A stretch of 57,288 nucleotides of DNA, taken from NCBI RefSeq assembly GCF_017873415.1, contig NZ_JAGGKD010000014.1:1-57288 (forward strand). The letters are read 5' to 3'. The notes below the pieces were generated by a model. The model ran no database searches. It was given only the letters and a program-made list of their open reading frames with translations, and was not told the origin of the DNA. The position numbers and the translations under genes are program-made. Each line of letters opens with the position of its first letter. The stretch's first letter is position 1. Source of the stretch: Methanolobus bombayensis. GTDB lineage: Archaea > Halobacteriota > Methanosarcinia > Methanosarcinales > Methanosarcinaceae. Below are positions 3,557-11,847 of this stretch, one piece after another.

Positions 3557-5035
3557 TCATATAAGGCGATTAATTCCATTGAGGACCGCTTCGACAGATG
3601 CCATTACTATGTCCGTACGTGATCCTCTGGCTGTTACCATCTTTCCGTCCTTTGAAAGTTTTACCAGTACTTCTACCAGAGCATCGGTACCTCCGCTGAT
3701 GGCATCTACATGGTATTCTTCAAGCTGCACATCTGCAATGCCTGAAATACCTTTTCTGATACTTGCAAAAGCGGCATCTACCGGTCCGTCTCCAATGCCT
3801 GCTTCAACAACCTCATTCCCATCAACCTTAAGTTTTACAGAAGCTGTAGGAGTTACACGGTTACCTGAAACAACTGTATATTCTTCAAGGATGACCTTTG
3901 CTTCTTTATGAATGCTGAGGACAGTTTCAGCTATTGCCTGAAGGTCTGCATCTGTAACTCTCTTTCCGTGATCTCCAAGTTCTTTTACACGGTTGAGTAT
4001 TTCATGCAGTTGGGTATCATCAACATCGAATCCCATCTCCTTAACTGCGAGGGTTACTGAGCTCTTTCCTGCATGTTTTCCAAGCACAATCTTTCTTTCC
4101 CTGCCAAGGATTTCAGGCTTTATAGGTTCGTATGTTTCGGTATCTGCAAGCAGTCCATGTACGTGTATGCCTGCTTCGTGGGTAAATGCATTACCGCCGA
4201 TAAGTGATTTGTTAGGAGCCACAGGTAGCCCTGTAAGCCTGCTTACGAGTCTGGAGGTCTTGAAGATCTCCTTTGTATTAATTCCGGTTTTGTATTTGTA
4301 TAACCATTCAATGGTCATCACAACTTCTTCCAGTGCAGTATTTCCTGCCCTTTCACCAATACCGTTGATTGTTACGTGGGCCTGTTGTGCGCCTCCTCTT
4401 AGGGCTGCTATTGTATTAGCAGTGCCAAGGCCGAAGTCATTGTGGCAGTGGATACTCACTGGTGCCTTTACTGCTGAGCAGATATCACTGAAAACAAGTT
4501 CTGTTTTTTCAGGTACAAGTAGTCCCACGGTATCACAGTAACATAACCTGTCTGCTCCGGCGTCGACTCCGTCATTATATAATGACTTAAGGAACTCAAC
4601 ATCTGCTCTGGAAGCATCTTCTCCGCTAAGTTCCACAATAAGACCATGCTCTTTTGCATATTCTGTTACATCAACAGCCATCTTTCTGACGGTTTCTCTG
4701 TCTTTCTTAAGTTTTACATTTATGTGAAGATCCGATACAGGAGCTACAAGATGGATGGAATCCACATCACATGCCAGAGCATAATCTACATCTGGCTTCA
4801 TTATCCTGCAGTAGCTGCATATTTCTGCGTTTAAACCTTCAGCAACCACAGCTCTGATCGACTCACGTTCACCTTCGGAAGTGATGGCAGATCCTGCCTC
4901 GATTACGTTAACACCTAATTCATCCAGCTTGGTGGCAATATCCACCTTGTCCTGACTGGTAAGTGCTACACCTGGTGTCTGTTCGCCATCTCTAAGAGTT
5001 GTGTCTAAAAACCGGACATTTTCGAATAATATAAT
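3557..5035 (-). CDS. cimA: (R)-citramalate synthase / 2-isopropylmalate synthase family, no canonical start codon
   Basis: Condenses acetyl-CoA with pyruvate (citramalate, isoleucine route of methanogens) or with 2-oxoisovalerate (leucine route). The next genes, ilvBNC, favour citramalate synthase. The HMGL-like TIM barrel begins with VRFLDTTLRDGEQTPG and has the metal motif SIHCHNDFGLGTAN. The C-terminal third is a LeuA dimer/allosteric domain ending NGINRLI. The first ATG/GTG/TTG in frame is the GTG at 4945, downstream of the essential TTLRDGE motif. The frame is open only back to a TGA at 5041-5039. Possible starts are ATT 5035, ATA 5032, or TTA 5029, which is spaced six bases from GAGGG. 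The out-of-frame ATG at 5019 runs into TAG. The 5' boundary is therefore tentative; the coding assignment is firm. Confidence 0.9.
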   Translation of the reverse strand: MILFENVRFLDTTLRDGEQTPGVALTSQDKVDIATKLDELGVNVIEAGSAITSEGERESIRAVVAEGLNAEICSYCRIMKPDVDYALACDVDSIHLVAPVSDLHINVKLKKDRETVRKMAVDVTEYAKEHGLIVELSGEDASRADVEFLKSLYNDGVDAGADRLCYCDTVGLLVPEKTELVFSDICSAVKAPVSIHCHNDFGLGTANTIAALRGGAQQAHVTINGIGERAGNTALEEVVMTIEWLYKYKTGINTKEIFKTSRLVSRLTGLPVAPNKSLIGGNAFTHEAGIHVHGLLADTETYEPIKPEILGRERKIVLGKHAGKSSVTLAVKEMGFDVDDTQLHEILNRVKELGDHGKRVTDADLQAIAETVLSIHKEAKVILEEYTVVSGNRVTPTASVKLKVDGNEVVEAGIGDGPVDAAFASIRKGISGIADVQLEEYHVDAISGGTDALVEVLVKLSKDGKMVTARGSRTDIVMASVEAVLNGINRLI

Positions 5036-5051
5036 CCCTCACGATGTTTGT

Positions 5052-5068
5052 CTGCTACTGAGTAGCAG
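5052..5068. promoter_or_regulatory. Perfect palindrome at the predicted cimA transcription start
   Basis: CTGCTACT-G-AGTAGCAG is a perfect 8+1+8 inverted repeat. It covers roughly +1 to +17 relative to a start predicted from the TATA box at 5091-5100. A dyad placed there would let a bound dimer block transcription. A role as operator of the branched-chain operon is inference, and the regulator is unknown. Confidence 0.5.
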
Positions 5069-5087
5069 CCTAAAGGGATACACTGAA

Positions 5088-5104
5088 GTGCTATATATGT
5101 ATAA
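5088..5104 (-). promoter_or_regulatory. TATA box of the cimA-ilvBNC operon
   Basis: The minus strand reads ACATATATAGC with a purine-poor block before it, a good archaeal TATA box. It is the only strong one between cimA and the next upstream gene. The predicted start near 5069 gives a leader of about 35 bases. Confidence 0.55.
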
Positions 5105-5137
5105 CGATTAATTTATCATGATTCATCATGAAAAGTA

Positions 5138-5158
5138 ATGGGGACTCAGTCCCCAAAA
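5138..5158 (-). terminator. Hairpin after the M42 peptidase gene
   Basis: GGGGACT-C-AGTCCCC (5140-5154) is a perfect 7+1+7 stem, 24 bases after the peptidase stop codon. On the minus strand a run of six T precedes the stem rather than following it, so it may act as a stability element as much as a terminator. Confidence 0.45.
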
Positions 5159-5177
5159 AAGATTTGTGAATTTCTCC

Positions 5178-6224
5178 TTAGAAATAATCATTGACACTGA
5201 GAACTGCTTTTGTAATTAAGTCTGAGCAACTCTTAAGGTCTGCAAGATCCAGAACTTCCACGGGAGAGTGTATGTATCTTGTTGCAACACTAAGAACCGT
5301 GGATGGAATTCCTTCTCTTGTAAGGTGAATTGCTGTTGCATCGGTTGTACCACCATCACCGACATCTGTCTGGTATTCAATTTCATTCTTCTCTGCAGTT
5401 TCAACAAGCCATTTGACGACCTGTGGTGCTGCGATTATACCTCTTCCTGCAGCATCAGCTATTGTGATCACACCACCTTTTCCGGTGTCAAGTGCAGATT
5501 CACTCTTACTCATACCGGGATGATCTCCAGGGATCGTTGTGTCAATTGCTATTGCAATGTCTGGATCAAGTCCGAAAGCTGAAGTGCGTGCTCCTTTAAG
5601 ACCAACTTCTTCCTGTACGGTTCCGACAGCATAAATGGTTGCCTTTATGTCCATTTCTGCTAGCTGGCGCATTGCATCGATCATTATTGCACATCCTGCC
5701 CTGTTGTCGAATGCCTTACCGGTTATTTTGTTGTTTGCAAGCTTCTTAACTTCACGGTCCATTGAAACCGGAGTTCCCACAATAACTCCCATTTTCTCGG
5801 CATCTTCCTTGTCCTTTGCACCGATGTCAATGAACATGTCCTTTGACTCAGGTGGTTTTTTCCTGTCGTCAGGTTTCATGACATGTGGTGGTTTTGAACC
5901 TATCACTCCCGGTATTGGTCCTTTTGTTGTGTGGACAATTACTCTCTGGCTGTGAAGTGTTGGGTCATACCATCCGCCAATTGTGACGAATTTAAGAAAT
6001 CCGTCATCATCGATGTACTTGACCATCAGGCCAATCTCATCCATGTGAGCAGCAAGCATTATTGAGGGTCCTTCACCTTTTCTGGTTGCTATGAGATTTC
6101 CCATCTTGTCAGTTCTCATTTCATCAACGTAAGGTTTAAGTTCTTCTTCAAGAATGGTTCTTATATTGCCTTCGCTGCCGGATATCCCATGAGCATTAGA
6201 TAATTTTGTGATTAGTCCTTCCAT
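5178..6224 (-). CDS. M42 family metallo-aminopeptidase (FrvX/glucanase-like)
   Basis: Cytoplasmic di-zinc aminopeptidase of the TET/FrvX type, forming large tetrahedral particles in other archaea and trimming short peptides. Zinc ligands and catalytic residues are visible in order: AAHMDEIGLMV, the KAFDNRAGCAIM segment, the catalytic pair VQEEVGLKGA, AIDTTIPGDHPG, and the terminal histidine in RYIHSPVEV. The length of about 348 residues is normal. Two ATGs lie nine bases apart. I chose the second (MEGLITKLS) because the AGAAG ribosome-like site touches the first. No functional link to the neighbouring operons is evident. Confidence 0.93.
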   Translation of the reverse strand: MEGLITKLSNAHGISGSEGNIRTILEEELKPYVDEMRTDKMGNLIATRKGEGPSIMLAAHMDEIGLMVKYIDDDGFLKFVTIGGWYDPTLHSQRVIVHTTKGPIPGVIGSKPPHVMKPDDRKKPPESKDMFIDIGAKDKEDAEKMGVIVGTPVSMDREVKKLANNKITGKAFDNRAGCAIMIDAMRQLAEMDIKATIYAVGTVQEEVGLKGARTSAFGLDPDIAIAIDTTIPGDHPGMSKSESALDTGKGGVITIADAAGRGIIAAPQVVKWLVETAEKNEIEYQTDVGDGGTTDATAIHLTREGIPSTVLSVATRYIHSPVEVLDLADLKSCSDLITKAVLSVNDYF

Positions 6225-6306: not shown

Positions 6307-6347
6307 TTTAAAAAAGAAAAAATAGGAGTAAGTTAGTTTACTTACTC
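6307..6347 (-). terminator. Terminator of the PEF-CTERM gene
   Basis: GAGTAAG and CTTACTC (6326-6347) form a perfect 7-bp stem with an 8-base loop overlapping the stop codon. On the minus strand it is followed by a long T-rich tract (TTTTTTCTTTTTT, 6320-6308). Confidence 0.75.
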
Positions 6348-6872
6348 TTCCTTACGGCGCTGCATGAAGAATGCAAGACCGATAATTGCAGCTACTGGGA
6401 GTGCAATTGTTGGGAATTCTGGAATAGTTTCAATTGTTCTTGAAGCTGTCTGGAATTCTACAGTTTCTCCACCAGCACCAACTTCTATGTAATAGCGTGC
6501 ACCTTCTGGAGCATTAGCATCTAGTGATACTTTAATTACTCCAGTATCCATGTATGTGCTTCCTCCTGGAATGAATCCATCAGGGTTGTATGCAGTGTTG
6601 AATTCAATTGTTATATCTGTTGGATCAGCTGCTGCAGGGGATCCTGCTCTTACACTTACTTCTTCCACTGTATACTCGAAAAATTCATCATATTCAGCTG
6701 GAATTATTGATGAGGCATAATAACTGAGTACTATTGATTCTCCTGGTTTCAGAAGTACTGGGTTATCTGCGACATTGTTTCCTGCTGCATCATACAATAC
6801 AGCCTGATAGGCTGATGCAGTTCCTGCCATAGCTAGTATGGCTACAAAGAACATTACTAATAGTTTCTTCAT
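6342..6872 (-). CDS. Secreted PEF-CTERM domain protein
   Basis: A small exported protein of 176 residues with a signal peptide (MKKLLVMFFVAILAMAGTASA) and a C-terminal sorting signal: PEF motif in TIPEFPTIALP, a transmembrane helix, then QRRKEE. This tripartite tail is the known substrate mark of archaeosortase ArtC, and an archaeosortase lies at 11023. The mature part is acidic and beta-rich, resembling a small surface or S-layer associated domain; no enzyme motif is seen. The start was set at the ATG at 6872 because GGTGG lies seven bases upstream. The longer frame from 6950 adds only basic residues read from the promoter and leader. Confidence 0.9.
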   Translation of the reverse strand: MKKLLVMFFVAILAMAGTASAYQAVLYDAAGNNVADNPVLLKPGESIVLSYYASSIIPAEYDEFFEYTVEEVSVRAGSPAAADPTDITIEFNTAYNPDGFIPGGSTYMDTGVIKVSLDANAPEGARYYIEVGAGGETVEFQTASRTIETIPEFPTIALPVAAIIGLAFFMQRRKEE

Positions 6873-6927
6873 TTTCGTACCACCTCTTATATTACAAAGA
6901 TTCTTACTGTTACTTCTTCTTTTGTAT

Positions 6928-6999: not shown

Positions 7000-9699
7000 T
7001 TACGAGACATAGAATATCCATTCTTCTTTTATGGAGTTGCCTGCCTGATCAACTACAGTTAATTCGACAACATTTTCTCCTTCCAGTAAATCATTGGCCA
7101 GATAGAATAAGGAACTATATCCTATTTCTGTATTTGAAGTGACATCGATTCCATTTACTTTTAATAGTAATTTTGTCTTATCGATTCCAGTCCTGTCATC
7201 AGTGTATGATGCAGTTATTGTATAGGAACCTGAATTAATAGTCTCTCCATTGCCAGGTGAGTAACTTTCGATTTCAGGTTCTTCTCTGTCAATTACAAAA
7301 GTTTCTTCTTCGTAAAGCTGCTCATCATTTACAGTCCTTGCTTTTGCAATGATTCTTGCTACGCCATCGCGCGTGTCATCCTCAATTTCAATATTGTATC
7401 GATATTCATTATCATCTTTGCTTTCATATGTCGTATCAATTACATATCCATATCTATCGATGATGGTAATTGATGGTTCTTTTTCTAAAGCTGCAGATGA
7501 TGATACTCGCAGTTCCGCATTATTTGATACCTTTTCTGGAATTACATCTATTGTCAGTTCTTCTAATGTTTCATCAGTATATAATGTTCCAAATGTGTAT
7601 GCTGTATTGTTGGAATAGTCTGTAGCTATTACTTCAATATCAAATGTATCCTGAACTTTTATCGTAAATTTACTACTCCATATGAAATTGTCTTCTGTAT
7701 CAAGCTTTATTGTTTCTGCGGCGCCAAAATTTTGTGGACTGATTATGCAAGTTACTTCTGATAATTCCTTATTAGCTTCTACTGTTAGATATGTTACGTC
7801 TGTTGCGGGGTTTGGTGTGATATCAAGTTCTATTTCTGGTGCGGAACTATCTATGGTTGTACTTGCATCTGGGTCAGGATTTGTAATTTCCGTATTCAAT
7901 GCATTATCAACAGCTATGGATCTGAAGTAGTATGTTAATCCCTGCTGGCCTTCAAACTCAGCTGATGTCATTGTTGTCTTTGTTATCCAGTTTTTCCATG
8001 TGGTTCCATCAGTAGAATATTGGATGTCATAATAGTAAATACCAGATTCTGAATCTGTCCCATTCCACTCCACAGTAAACTTAGGGTTGCTTACTTTTGG
8101 AAGAGGAAGCACCTTTGATTCCGGAAGTTCAAATTCAACTGTATTATCTTCTTTGATGTAGGGTGAAATTGCTGATTCTGGTATGAAAGTAACTTCGTCT
8201 ATAACCAGCTCAACTGGGTGTAGTAACTGATTTCTTCCCTGTAGTAAAATGAAGGAAAGAGTATTATCTCCTTCCTGAAGTCTGACAGGTATTTCAACAT
8301 GCTGCCATCCTTCATCTTCATTCATACCATCAGCCCATAAGAGTTCTCTGTTAAACACTATTCTCTTTGACTGGGTTTCATCTACATCTGCCATGCCTTT
8401 GGTGTATGTATCTTTTAGGTAAAATGACAGGATTACATTGGCAGACTCATTACTATGGATGACTTGTTGCAGTGTATGAGTGGCAAACTGGTTAATTATT
8501 CCTTCATAACTTGCATTGATAATAAATGCCCTTGATGAGTAGATTCCCGAATCATTCACATAGTATCCTGATGCTATACTTTCATTTGTTGTGGTGAAAT
8601 CCCAGCCCACATCTAACTCCATAGATGGATTTATTATTTCAGCAAAGTCTATTACATCATATTCTTTAGTCTGAACGGGTTCACTACTTATTACCTGGTT
8701 GACCCAGAGGTGCACAGATCTTTCAGCCCGCCCTTCGGATTCGTCTTTAAATAACACAAGTTCAAGCTTTTGTCTTCCTCTCTTGGATTGAGCAGGGGAT
8801 ATGGCAAGCTCTTCCTCCCACATTTCTTCATGATCCAGAGTAATTTGCATCGTATCTAGTGTGTTGCCATCTAATCTGATCTCAAGTGTATAATTCTCTC
8901 TGGCATGCTCAAAGTTCTCAACACCTGCAATAATGTTTATGGGGTCACTTGTTGAGAAATTTTCAGGATAATTCTCGGCTTTGCCATTCGGTCCGAGTAT
9001 ATACAATGTTGTAAATGTTTCCTTTTCTCTTGTGGCTTTTGCGTAAGCAAACATAGAACCTGCAATGATGATGGAAAGTACCATTGCTATTATTAGTGTT
9101 TTTGTGATTTCCGGAGATAATTTATCAGTAGTTTTCAAAGCAGGTTTTTTTGTTTCTTTCAATGATTTATGAATTGAAGAGACTTTTTTTCTGTTTGTAG
9201 CAGCAAAACGTTTGTCTTCAAGATCTTCGTAGCATATTTCCTCATCTTTTTCATTATTGTCGCACTTATCGGTTGTTGTCAGGGAGTGAATAAATTCTTT
9301 GTATGAAAAACTGAATTGCTCTTCTTCAGGAAGGCGTTTTCTTGCCAGATAAGCTATAATGCCAAATATGAATGTTAACAATACAAGGGAAGTGGTTATT
9401 GAGTTTGGCCTGAATTTCCATATAGTAAGGCTGATAAGAAATCCATCAAATACCATAATTACAATACTAAAACCCACACTCAGTGTGAATCTTTCAATTC
9501 CTGAGATCTCTTTGTTTCCTGGGAACATAGCAGAAATAAAAGCATATCCTGGTATGAAAAATATTAATAGCAATGCAAATGGTATTTTTAAAGGAGTTTC
9601 ACTAAGTGGTGGAATCAGGATAAAAATGACTGAAAGCAAAGCTATTAAGAATATTGCTTTTAAGTCCTGAGTGTATCTGCATTTATTTTTGCCAAACAT
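7000..9699 (-). CDS. DUF1616 membrane protein with large extracellular Ig-like region
   Basis: 899 residues. The first 120 are a four-helix membrane block of the DUF1616 type (segments near 14-32, 37-56, 70-92, 98-116). A charged cytoplasmic linker and a fifth helix near 198-218 follow. The remaining 680 residues should lie outside. They contain a jelly-roll-like carbohydrate-binding segment (about 330-510) and several Ig or FnIII-like repeats with phrases such as WNGTDSESGIYYYDIQYSTDG and SYTDDRTGIDKTKLLLKVNGIDV. DUF1616 has no fixed biochemical role that I know of. Its place between a PEF-CTERM protein and archaeosortase suggests envelope assembly. The ATG is preceded by a weak AAGGA. There is no PEF tail of its own. 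Confidence 0.85.
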   Translation of the reverse strand: MFGKNKCRYTQDLKAIFLIALLSVIFILIPPLSETPLKIPFALLLIFFIPGYAFISAMFPGNKEISGIERFTLSVGFSIVIMVFDGFLISLTIWKFRPNSITTSLVLLTFIFGIIAYLARKRLPEEEQFSFSYKEFIHSLTTTDKCDNNEKDEEICYEDLEDKRFAATNRKKVSSIHKSLKETKKPALKTTDKLSPEITKTLIIAMVLSIIIAGSMFAYAKATREKETFTTLYILGPNGKAENYPENFSTSDPINIIAGVENFEHARENYTLEIRLDGNTLDTMQITLDHEEMWEEELAISPAQSKRGRQKLELVLFKDESEGRAERSVHLWVNQVISSEPVQTKEYDVIDFAEIINPSMELDVGWDFTTTNESIASGYYVNDSGIYSSRAFIINASYEGIINQFATHTLQQVIHSNESANVILSFYLKDTYTKGMADVDETQSKRIVFNRELLWADGMNEDEGWQHVEIPVRLQEGDNTLSFILLQGRNQLLHPVELVIDEVTFIPESAISPYIKEDNTVEFELPESKVLPLPKVSNPKFTVEWNGTDSESGIYYYDIQYSTDGTTWKNWITKTTMTSAEFEGQQGLTYYFRSIAVDNALNTEITNPDPDASTTIDSSAPEIELDITPNPATDVTYLTVEANKELSEVTCIISPQNFGAAETIKLDTEDNFIWSSKFTIKVQDTFDIEVIATDYSNNTAYTFGTLYTDETLEELTIDVIPEKVSNNAELRVSSSAALEKEPSITIIDRYGYVIDTTYESKDDNEYRYNIEIEDDTRDGVARIIAKARTVNDEQLYEEETFVIDREEPEIESYSPGNGETINSGSYTITASYTDDRTGIDKTKLLLKVNGIDVTSNTEIGYSSLFYLANDLLEGENVVELTVVDQAGNSIKEEWIFYVS

Positions 9700-9796: not shown

Positions 9797-9858
9797 AAGG
9801 TGCCATTGTATATCAGCTTATAAATAAAACATTTTAATTATATATAAGAGGGATTATC

Positions 9859-10764
9859 ATTAAGAACAAGATCTGGATATATCTTCTGTTTACTATAATT
9901 GCCCTACCTGTCATATCAATTGCATACTATATAGGCGGTTTCGTTCCAACAATCCTGAGTTTTATTGTAATTCTCATCTTAAGCAGGGTAGTGTATTTAT
10001 CTTCTTCACGCTTCATTTTGAAGTGGTATGGGTGCAAAGATATGTCGTCAACTGAATTTACAGAACTTCATAATATGGTTGATAAGCTATGCACGATCTT
10101 TTCTGTGAAAAGACCCCAAGTTCATCTATTTGAATCGTCAGTTCCTGTGATTTTCACAGTGGGTTCAAAGAAAAAATCCCATATTATTGTTTCTCGCAGG
10201 TTGCTTGATCTTATGGAAGATGGTGAACTGGAAATGGTTTTTGCCCGTGAGCTGGCTCGAATAAAAGAAGGTAATGTAACCCAGAATACTTTTGTAGCAC
10301 TTGTAGCAGGAATTATTGCCTCATTCTCGACCATTGCTTTATGGATGGCCATGCTCACTGGTTTTGGACAGGAAGATGATCCGGCTCCAAAATTCATAAG
10401 GTTTGTAGCTATGGGTATTGTTATGCTCCCTTGTTCTCTGATAGTTTATGCCGGGGCATCTGATTCGATACTAAAAGCTGATATCGGAGCTGTAAGGATA
10501 ATGGGCAATAATGCTGTAATGTCTTCTGCACTCAAAAGGTTGCATAATGATATTCTCCTTAACTCAATGGAGTACTTCAATCCAGGGCATGTTCATCTAT
10601 ATGCAATGAATCCTGTGAAAGCAAATTCCTTTTTCGATATTCATCTCTCCCTTTTTGATATGAAACCTTCACTTTCAGAGCGTCTTATATCCATTAATGA
10701 AACAAACGTGGTTGCAGGCCAGGATAAAATAGTCAGAAATAGAACAAATTTAACTGAGGTTTGA
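9859..10764 (+). CDS. HtpX-like M48 family protein with the zinc site lost
   Basis: Aligns with HtpX membrane proteases in layout: N-terminal helices, GELEMVFARELARIKEGN where active members have HELAHIK, a middle pair of helices, a segment ILKADIGAVRIMGNN in place of REFAADRGA, and a tail PSLSERL in place of HPPLEKR. Both zinc histidines are arginine and the third ligand, glutamate, is isoleucine, so peptidase activity is not expected. The first ordinary start is GTG 9991, which would remove the first membrane helices. In frame from ATT 9859 the reading KNKIWIYLLFTIIALPV begins six bases after GAGGG, giving 301 residues, the normal HtpX length. Either ATT is used or the start has been lost. 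A regulatory or chaperone-like role beside archaeosortase is inference. Confidence 0.8.
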   Translation: MKNKIWIYLLFTIIALPVISIAYYIGGFVPTILSFIVILILSRVVYLSSSRFILKWYGCKDMSSTEFTELHNMVDKLCTIFSVKRPQVHLFESSVPVIFTVGSKKKSHIIVSRRLLDLMEDGELEMVFARELARIKEGNVTQNTFVALVAGIIASFSTIALWMAMLTGFGQEDDPAPKFIRFVAMGIVMLPCSLIVYAGASDSILKADIGAVRIMGNNAVMSSALKRLHNDILLNSMEYFNPGHVHLYAMNPVKANSFFDIHLSLFDMKPSLSERLISINETNVVAGQDKIVRNRTNLTEV

Positions 10765-10766
10765 TT

Positions 10767-11003
10767 ATGTTTTCGGAGATAAATTATTTTTATACAAGTC
10801 TTAAAGACTGGCAAAAAGCAATGCTTTTCAGTTTCATATCCTATTCCATAATCCTCTTTGGTCTGATAGTGGCTATTACATTCATACTCAAGGATTTTAA
10901 ATTCCTGCTGGTATTTGGGCTTAGTTTTGCGTATATGGGCACAGTTATCATACTGATGCTAATATCTGCTAAAATACTCAAAAAGAGATTGGTAGAACGT
11001 TAG
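10767..11003 (+). CDS. Small two-helix membrane protein
   Basis: 78 residues with two predicted membrane helices (about 20-42 and 48-70) and a basic tail KILKKRLVER. It starts three bases after the HtpX-like stop codon and is surely co-transcribed and translationally coupled with it. No family is recognised. Pairing with an inactive M48 protein suggests a membrane complex partner, which is inference. It ends 20 bp from the convergent archaeosortase gene. Confidence 0.7.
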   Translation: MFSEINYFYTSLKDWQKAMLFSFISYSIILFGLIVAITFILKDFKFLLVFGLSFAYMGTVIILMLISAKILKKRLVER

Positions 11004-11022: not shown

Positions 11023-11847
11023 TCACTTCCTATTGATAAGGTACATGATACCACCTGCAGTGACTGCAAATATCATCCATCCTATGTGGGTATGTACCAT
11101 CATCATGGTATCCATTCCATAAAGGTAAGCAGTGATATACAATATGATTACTCTGATGAGATTGGCAATATATGCGATAAGAACTGCAAAACCCAGCAAA
11201 CCGAATGTCTTCTTGATTTCCATCTTTTCTATTCTTGAATAGCCAGCTACAATACCTATTAAGAGGAACATTGAATAAAGGCCGGAACATGGTCCTCCAA
11301 TGATTATAGTCATAGGCTCTGCGCCATAGAGAATTACAGTCTCTGTAGCTATTATTTCAATTGGTATCCCCAGAAGTTTTATAATTGCTACAGTTGGCAT
11401 CAGGACAAAATAATGGTCAAAAAGGTGCAAGAAATCAATGTCGAAAAATCCGAAGAATGAATAGAAAATCAAGTAAAATATTGTGAACACAGAGGATATG
11501 TAAAATCCAAATTCTCCAAGTTGCTTAATATCTTTTTTCCCTGTACCCATAGCTATCAGGGAAACACCAAGGAAAAATACCATTGAGTCCAGCGTTCCCA
11601 GTTCACTGCTATTTACATAATTGTATATGAGGTCTGCAGCAACTATAAATCCGCCGATCAGAAGGAAATTCCTTGAACTCTGCAATCCTTCATTGCCTCT
11701 TAATTCCATCCTGGATATCAGGATCGCAGCAACTATGAAAAGTATTACACCCACAATCGTAGATCCTTCACTGAGTTCTATTGTTGCTCCCGTGAAAAGT
11801 GCAAGTACTAATAGAATAATAATTATGTTTTTGTTTTCATCTTGCAT
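11023..11847 (-). CDS. artC: Archaeosortase (ArtC type, PEF-CTERM specific)
   Basis: Multi-pass membrane transpeptidase that cuts proteins at C-terminal sorting signals and is thought to attach them to lipid. Catalytic residues of the exosortase/archaeosortase fold are present: cysteine in IGGPCSGLYSMFLL, arginine in ANLIRVIILY, and histidine in MVHTHIGWMIF. About eight membrane helices over 274 residues. The subtype assignment to ArtC is inferred from the PEF-CTERM protein five kilobases away rather than from subfamily scoring. It has its own promoter and converges on the HtpX-like pair. Confidence 0.9.
   Translation of the reverse strand: MQDENKNIIIILLVLALFTGATIELSEGSTIVGVILFIVAAILISRMELRGNEGLQSSRNFLLIGGFIVAADLIYNYVNSSELGTLDSMVFFLGVSLIAMGTGKKDIKQLGEFGFYISSVFTIFYLIFYSFFGFFDIDFLHLFDHYFVLMPTVAIIKLLGIPIEIIATETVILYGAEPMTIIIGGPCSGLYSMFLLIGIVAGYSRIEKMEIKKTFGLLGFAVLIAYIANLIRVIILYITAYLYGMDTMMMVHTHIGWMIFAVTAGGIMYLINRK

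Follow-up and report, generated by a model that had tools for sequence, protein, structure and literature searches.

An HtpX-like M48 protein that has lost its zinc ligands and is linked to archaeosortase C in Methanolobus bombayensis: a candidate accessory subunit for protein sorting

Archaeosortases and exosortases are widespread, and little is known of the proteins that help them to find, hold and clear substrates. Archaeosortase C (ArtC) has been described as recognising the PEF-CTERM signal (PMC5244752). Among M48 proteins, the E. coli protease BepA also acts in a chaperone-like way that depends on its edge strand, and a protease-dead BepA mutant keeps this function only partly (PMC8423444). 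M48 is not mentioned in a 2024 review of inactive metallopeptidases (PMC11266112), and the literature searched yielded no account of the ArtC/PEF-CTERM system that counts an M48 protein among its components, whether active or inactive.

The window analysed here is a stretch of 57,288 nucleotides from Methanolobus bombayensis, the genome of which comprises 35 contigs and 3.12 Mb. The following features of the window were annotated.

6342-6878, minus strand: PEF-CTERM protein, probable ArtC substrate (TIGR03024, 36.7 bits, cut-off 23)
7000-9699, minus strand: DUF1616 protein, a conserved neighbour (Pfam PF07760, 213 bits)
9848-9853, plus strand: Shine-Dalgarno-like GAGGGA, about 5-6 bases upstream of the ATT (from the sequence and its relatives)
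9859-10764, plus strand: HtpX-like M48 pseudoprotease, 301 aa, with R130, R134 and I204 at the zinc ligand positions; ATT start, TGA included
10246-10260, plus strand: RELAR codons at the HExxH position, residues 130-134 (by alignment)
10360-10404, plus strand: loop GFGQEDDPAPKFIRF joining TM3 to TM4 (residues 168-182), predicted to be extracytoplasmic and a hallmark of M48 proteins associated with ArtC
10468-10470, plus strand: Ile204 codon at the third zinc ligand position (by alignment)
10767-11003, plus strand: two-helix partner, 78 aa, ATG at 10767, two bases past the M48 stop (helices from hydropathy)
11023-11847, minus strand: archaeosortase C (artC), 274 aa (TIGR03762, 346 bits, cut-off 100), with Cys/Arg/His kept

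The M48 gene is an open frame from 9859 to 10761 that ends in the stop codon TGA at 10762-10764, and its 301 residues comprise four predicted membrane helices and the M48 domain. The length of the frame and the position of the partner ATG, two bases past the stop, bear out an earlier note on this DNA, which described a frame of normal length with a coupled two-helix gene. In some relatives the partner likewise has a coupled gene of its own; in Methanosarcina and others it is joined to the M48 protein at the C-terminal end. In L111 (2218-3522), on one short contig, the partner is apparently fused to DUF1616 through a KTNEI-repeat linker, and in L160 (Hydrothermarchaeota, 4663-5400) the partner frame continues into a membrane domain that by eye is VanZ-like. 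Residues C187, R232 and H252 of ArtC are invariant in all 82 sequences compared. The genome contains 13 PEF-CTERM signal matches, one of which adjoins the M48 locus.

The M48 frame lacks an ATG start, and its best start is the ATT at 9859. The next in-frame ATG, GTG or TTG codon is the GTG at 9991, and a start there drops both N-terminal membrane helices. GAGG or GAGGG is kept at similar spacing upstream of the M48 starts of relatives. ATT, ATC or ATA occupies the start position, about 6 bases past the GAGG, in 26 of the 40 copies in the family, and ATG in 4. In L063, a TGA immediately precedes the ATT of the M48 frame. This pattern points to a putative conserved non-AUG start, which would perhaps give low or regulated translation. 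Nothing of use on AUU starts in archaea was found in the literature searched.

The window protein matches the Pfam Peptidase_M48 profile (PF01435) with 47.6 bits (cut-off 20.3) over profile positions 3-184 of 186, and falls below the cut-offs of the NCBIfam HtpX equivalog models (best 111 bits against 369). The profile match and the M48 fold with membrane helices place it in the M48 family by descent. The HExxH motif and downstream Glu of an active HtpX are absent, with RELAR and Ile204 at these positions. Two other M48 paralogues in the same genome both have intact sites (HELAH/HELSH, REFAAD). When the window protein is aligned with them, R130-E131-L-A-R134 stands in place of HExxH, the catalytic Glu131 is retained, and Ile204 lies four residues ahead of the conserved D208. 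The alignment with these intact paralogues thus confirmed what the earlier note had read from the letters, namely an HtpX layout with RELAR for HELAH and isoleucine at the third ligand. Because one residue is deleted nearby in the Methanolobus copies, the third ligand position may fall opposite an alignment gap, and no ligand is present either way. The R/R/I pattern is present in other species and is therefore not a sequencing error; a sequencing error or a single-strain mutation is also ruled out by the loss of the zinc site in all 18 copies of the genus.

The state of the site differs among relatives. In Methanosarcina and in g5, a related genus, the motif reads HEIGH and the Glu ligand is intact, with the partner as the C-terminal domain of the M48 protein, and the possibility that all relatives are dead is ruled out by Methanosarcina and many others. 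REIGH, with the remaining ligands kept, is the usual form in Methanococcoides and two other genera; these REIGH proteins may keep weak metal binding, and they are classed as inactive with less certainty. Within Methanolobus, the first His is absent from 18/18 copies and the second from 17/18 (G059 retains the second), and the third-ligand Glu is found in 0/17 full-length copies.

A search with the partner also retrieved this arrangement from families elsewhere in the class and phylum. Its carriers include Methanophagales (ANME-1), ANME-2, Argoarchaeum and one Hydrothermarchaeota genome. Archaeosortase C was reported absent from ANME-1 in a 2017 review. In four Methanophagales (ANME-1) loci (L152, L158, L159 and L164) an ArtC-like protein adjoins the M48 gene, the assignment being by likeness and not scored against the curated cut-off. 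Of 77 such M48 proteins, 48 lack at least one catalytic residue, through differing substitutions that include YEIAH, HEMSR, HELVL, YELTH, HELIR, DM..H and FQ..H, and HN..Q has a deletion at the third ligand. For L154, L156 and L157, the HExxH found as a text pattern lay elsewhere, and by alignment L154 and L156 are intact and L157 has YELTH.

A maximum-likelihood tree was built from 79 proteins (77 ArtC-type M48 proteins and 2 housekeeping HtpX), of which 31 have an intact site and 48 do not. The site changes state about 9 times on this tree (bootstrap 8-10), at least 6 changes being forced by well-supported branches; some branches are long, so the placement of single changes is unsure, and L068 may represent a regain. 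The cutting activity that an intact site would allow looks ancestral and repeatedly lost. In the two very close Methanococcoides loci L066 and L068 (dS 0.09), the codon of the first ligand is CGT (Arg) and CAT (His), respectively, a difference that could be a recent loss, a regain or a binning artefact.

Across the 22 aligned proteins of the family, whether their site is live or dead, Glu131, Asp208 and NPGH do not vary. The persistence of Glu131 and NPGH, inactive proteins included, would suit a residual enzymatic or metal-dependent activity, in which Glu131 and the NPGHxH histidines, or the Arg and Lys that replace ligands, make a different site. We consider such an activity quite unlikely, since in one further family, the locus of which is conserved, Asn takes the place of the Glu and NPGH has been lost, and since the ligands replaced vary from lineage to lineage, a pattern that does not point to a single new site.

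Among 112 genomes of the family Methanosarcinaceae, an M48 orthologue was found in 40 and artC above the cut-off in 39. Both were present in 37 genomes, ArtC only in 2, M48 only in 3 and neither in 70 (Fisher P = 1e-23, a value that overstates the evidence because the related genomes are treated as independent). At the class level, the corresponding counts for the partner and ArtC are 56/6/7/169 (P = 2e-39, genomes again treated as independent). Across the 40 M48 loci, artC lies within 32 and DUF1616 within 37, and several of the loci without artC or DUF1616 stop at a contig edge. Linkage to artC and co-occurrence with it make the M48 protein a candidate component of the ArtC/PEF-CTERM system, and both this association and the pseudoprotease state are well supported. 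The earlier note had claimed a dead HtpX homologue beside an archaeosortase, which these counts uphold; relatives never found near artC, the outcome that it had set against its own claim, were looked for and not found, adjacency being far above chance.

Several observations count against a shared machinery. The artC gene is on the opposite strand and so is not in one operon with the M48-partner pair, two genomes hold the pair without ArtC, and PEF-CTERM signals also occur in genomes without an above-cut-off ArtC. In G039 (L075, 7321-7928), the M48 gene and its partner are missing between DUF1616 and artC, and a search of this gap gave no convincing remnant of them (best chance-level E 0.05). 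G039 retains ArtC, DUF1616 and PEF-CTERM proteins without M48 or partner, so the pair is not always needed and its role is not essential everywhere. The M48 dN/dS, which exceeds that of artC, and a stop within the M48 frame of G052 weigh on the same side.

The surroundings of the locus include glycosyltransferase- and polysaccharide-type frames (identified by eye) that are outside the sorting system, as would be expected if the M48 pair were merely carried along in a surface-protein cluster with no role in sorting. The pair and ArtC have been gained and lost together over many lineages and the loop changes upon ArtC loss, and linkage of this kind without function is highly improbable.

Nei-Gojobori dN/dS values are 0.13-0.32 for pairs of inactive Methanolobus M48 genes, 0.10-0.23 for pairs of intact Methanosarcina and g5 genes, and 0.05-0.14 for artC, and the M48 value is above that of artC in every Methanolobus pair compared. 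The L066/L068 pair gives 0.47, and at a dS of 0.09 it is too close to carry more than little weight. The M48 protein is constrained, somewhat less than ArtC. This comparison, suggested by the earlier note, indicates purifying selection; the combination of close relatives with an intact site and a copy under relaxed selection was looked for and not found, all 18 genus copies being without the site. The open frame and the dN/dS of 0.13-0.32 rule out a simple pseudogene for the window copy. With its catalytic residues lost and its gene under purifying selection, the window protein is by sequence a pseudoprotease.

In G052 (L056, 9192-10076), an in-frame TAG interrupts the orthologue, and the artC, DUF1616 and partner frames are open. 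This TAG, the loss of the pair from G039 and the excess over the artC dN/dS in every genus pair are what slow decay would produce, with the gene gradually disappearing from Methanolobus and the signal of purifying selection left over from earlier use only. Against slow decay, the site is missing from 18/18 genus copies whose proteins differ down to about 40% identity, 17/18 frames are open, the dN/dS stays at 0.13-0.32 and the conserved motifs persist; we regard it as very unlikely.

The loop between TM3 and TM4 has the consensus GFGQxxDPAPxxIRF, and nearly all lineages retain it, whether the zinc site is inactive or intact. It was found in 0/30 housekeeping HtpX copies, of which 30/30 have intact sites (both strands read). 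Hydropathy and charge indicate that the loop should lie outside the cell, and archaeosortase A is listed as acting on the extracellular side (PMC9263693); the loop may meet ArtC there. Where artC has been lost, in two Methanococcoides, the loop sequence has changed to VFGRENNPIPK or VFGKENNPIPK, and one of these two genomes, G025, has no PEF-CTERM signals and a stop in its partner. The Phe of the edge strand (PxxF) is retained in 48/50 inactive rows. An AlphaFold2 model built for the window protein has a mean pLDDT of 85.9; its structural matches include ZMPSTE24/Ste24, the HtpX domain 3cqb and BepA, with Z 12.4 and 6.8 A over 205 residues for Ste24 (4il3) and Z 8.9 and 2.9 A over 97 residues for 3cqb. 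The model of a fused Methanosarcina-type protein (pLDDT 68.3) is too weak to place the docking of the partner.

A retained substrate edge strand and two intact M48 paralogues in the same genome are also compatible with a regulator or decoy of proteolysis, which would form mixed complexes with active HtpX or other proteases, or shield PEF-CTERM proteins, and so control turnover and not sorting. The linkage is, however, with ArtC and DUF1616 and not with housekeeping htpX genes, and conservation is strongest in the loop, which is absent from housekeeping HtpX, so that we judge this role unlikely.

Our best explanation, which we hold to have about an even chance of being right, is that the protein is a membrane pseudoprotease of the M48/HtpX fold and a non-catalytic accessory subunit of the ArtC/PEF-CTERM sorting machinery. 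It would function as part of a membrane complex that also contains ArtC, DUF1616 and the two-helix partner. The edge strand by the former active site would bind a PEF-CTERM substrate, or the tail left by the ArtC cut, without cleaving it. The loop, predicted to face the side of the membrane on which ArtC acts, may tether the M48 protein to the sorting signal, to DUF1616 or to ArtC, and where the site is intact the protein could additionally cut. We infer the complex, the bound target and the escort or holding role; the target most likely lies in the ArtC route because the gene pair, the fusions and the loop track ArtC, and the idea of an escort comes from the retention of the edge strand and the loop and from the divergence of the loop where artC is lost. 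Because the zinc site was lost repeatedly and separately, the M48 protein probably aids the sorting enzyme otherwise than by proteolysis, and the simplest account is that its binding role matters more than its cutting role. Of the interpretation in the earlier note, the dead state and the artC linkage stand, and the proposed escort or regulation of archaeosortase substrates may reasonably be inferred from sequence comparison.

More tentatively, and with somewhat less than an even chance, ArtC in methane-metabolising archaea may work in a membrane complex with an M48 subunit in which the protease activity is optional and was independently lost in several lineages, the dead fold being a substrate receptor or escort. 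If true, a non-catalytic protease fold serves a protein-sorting transpeptidase as receptor or escort. The M48 protein, the two-helix partner and DUF1616 around ArtC are concrete helper candidates. Repeated loss of the zinc site in one family is also a natural experiment, in which intact and dead lineages separate binding from cutting.

Compared with HtpX (M48, PF01435), the window protein shares the fold, length, membrane layout, sequence profile, edge strand PxxF and the Asp of ExxxD, and differs in its lost zinc ligands, its own loop GFGQxxDPAP and NPGH, its partner and its linkage to ArtC and DUF1616. BepA has the same M48 fold and is a precedent for non-proteolytic M48 action through the edge strand, but it is periplasmic and keeps its zinc site. 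The iRhoms belong to an unrelated, eukaryotic family of serine-protease ancestry. Their likeness is by analogy, as dead membrane proteases that bind membrane proteins and alter their trafficking (PMC11266112). As for the archaeosortase C/PEF-CTERM system, its transpeptidase and a probable substrate are both present at this locus.
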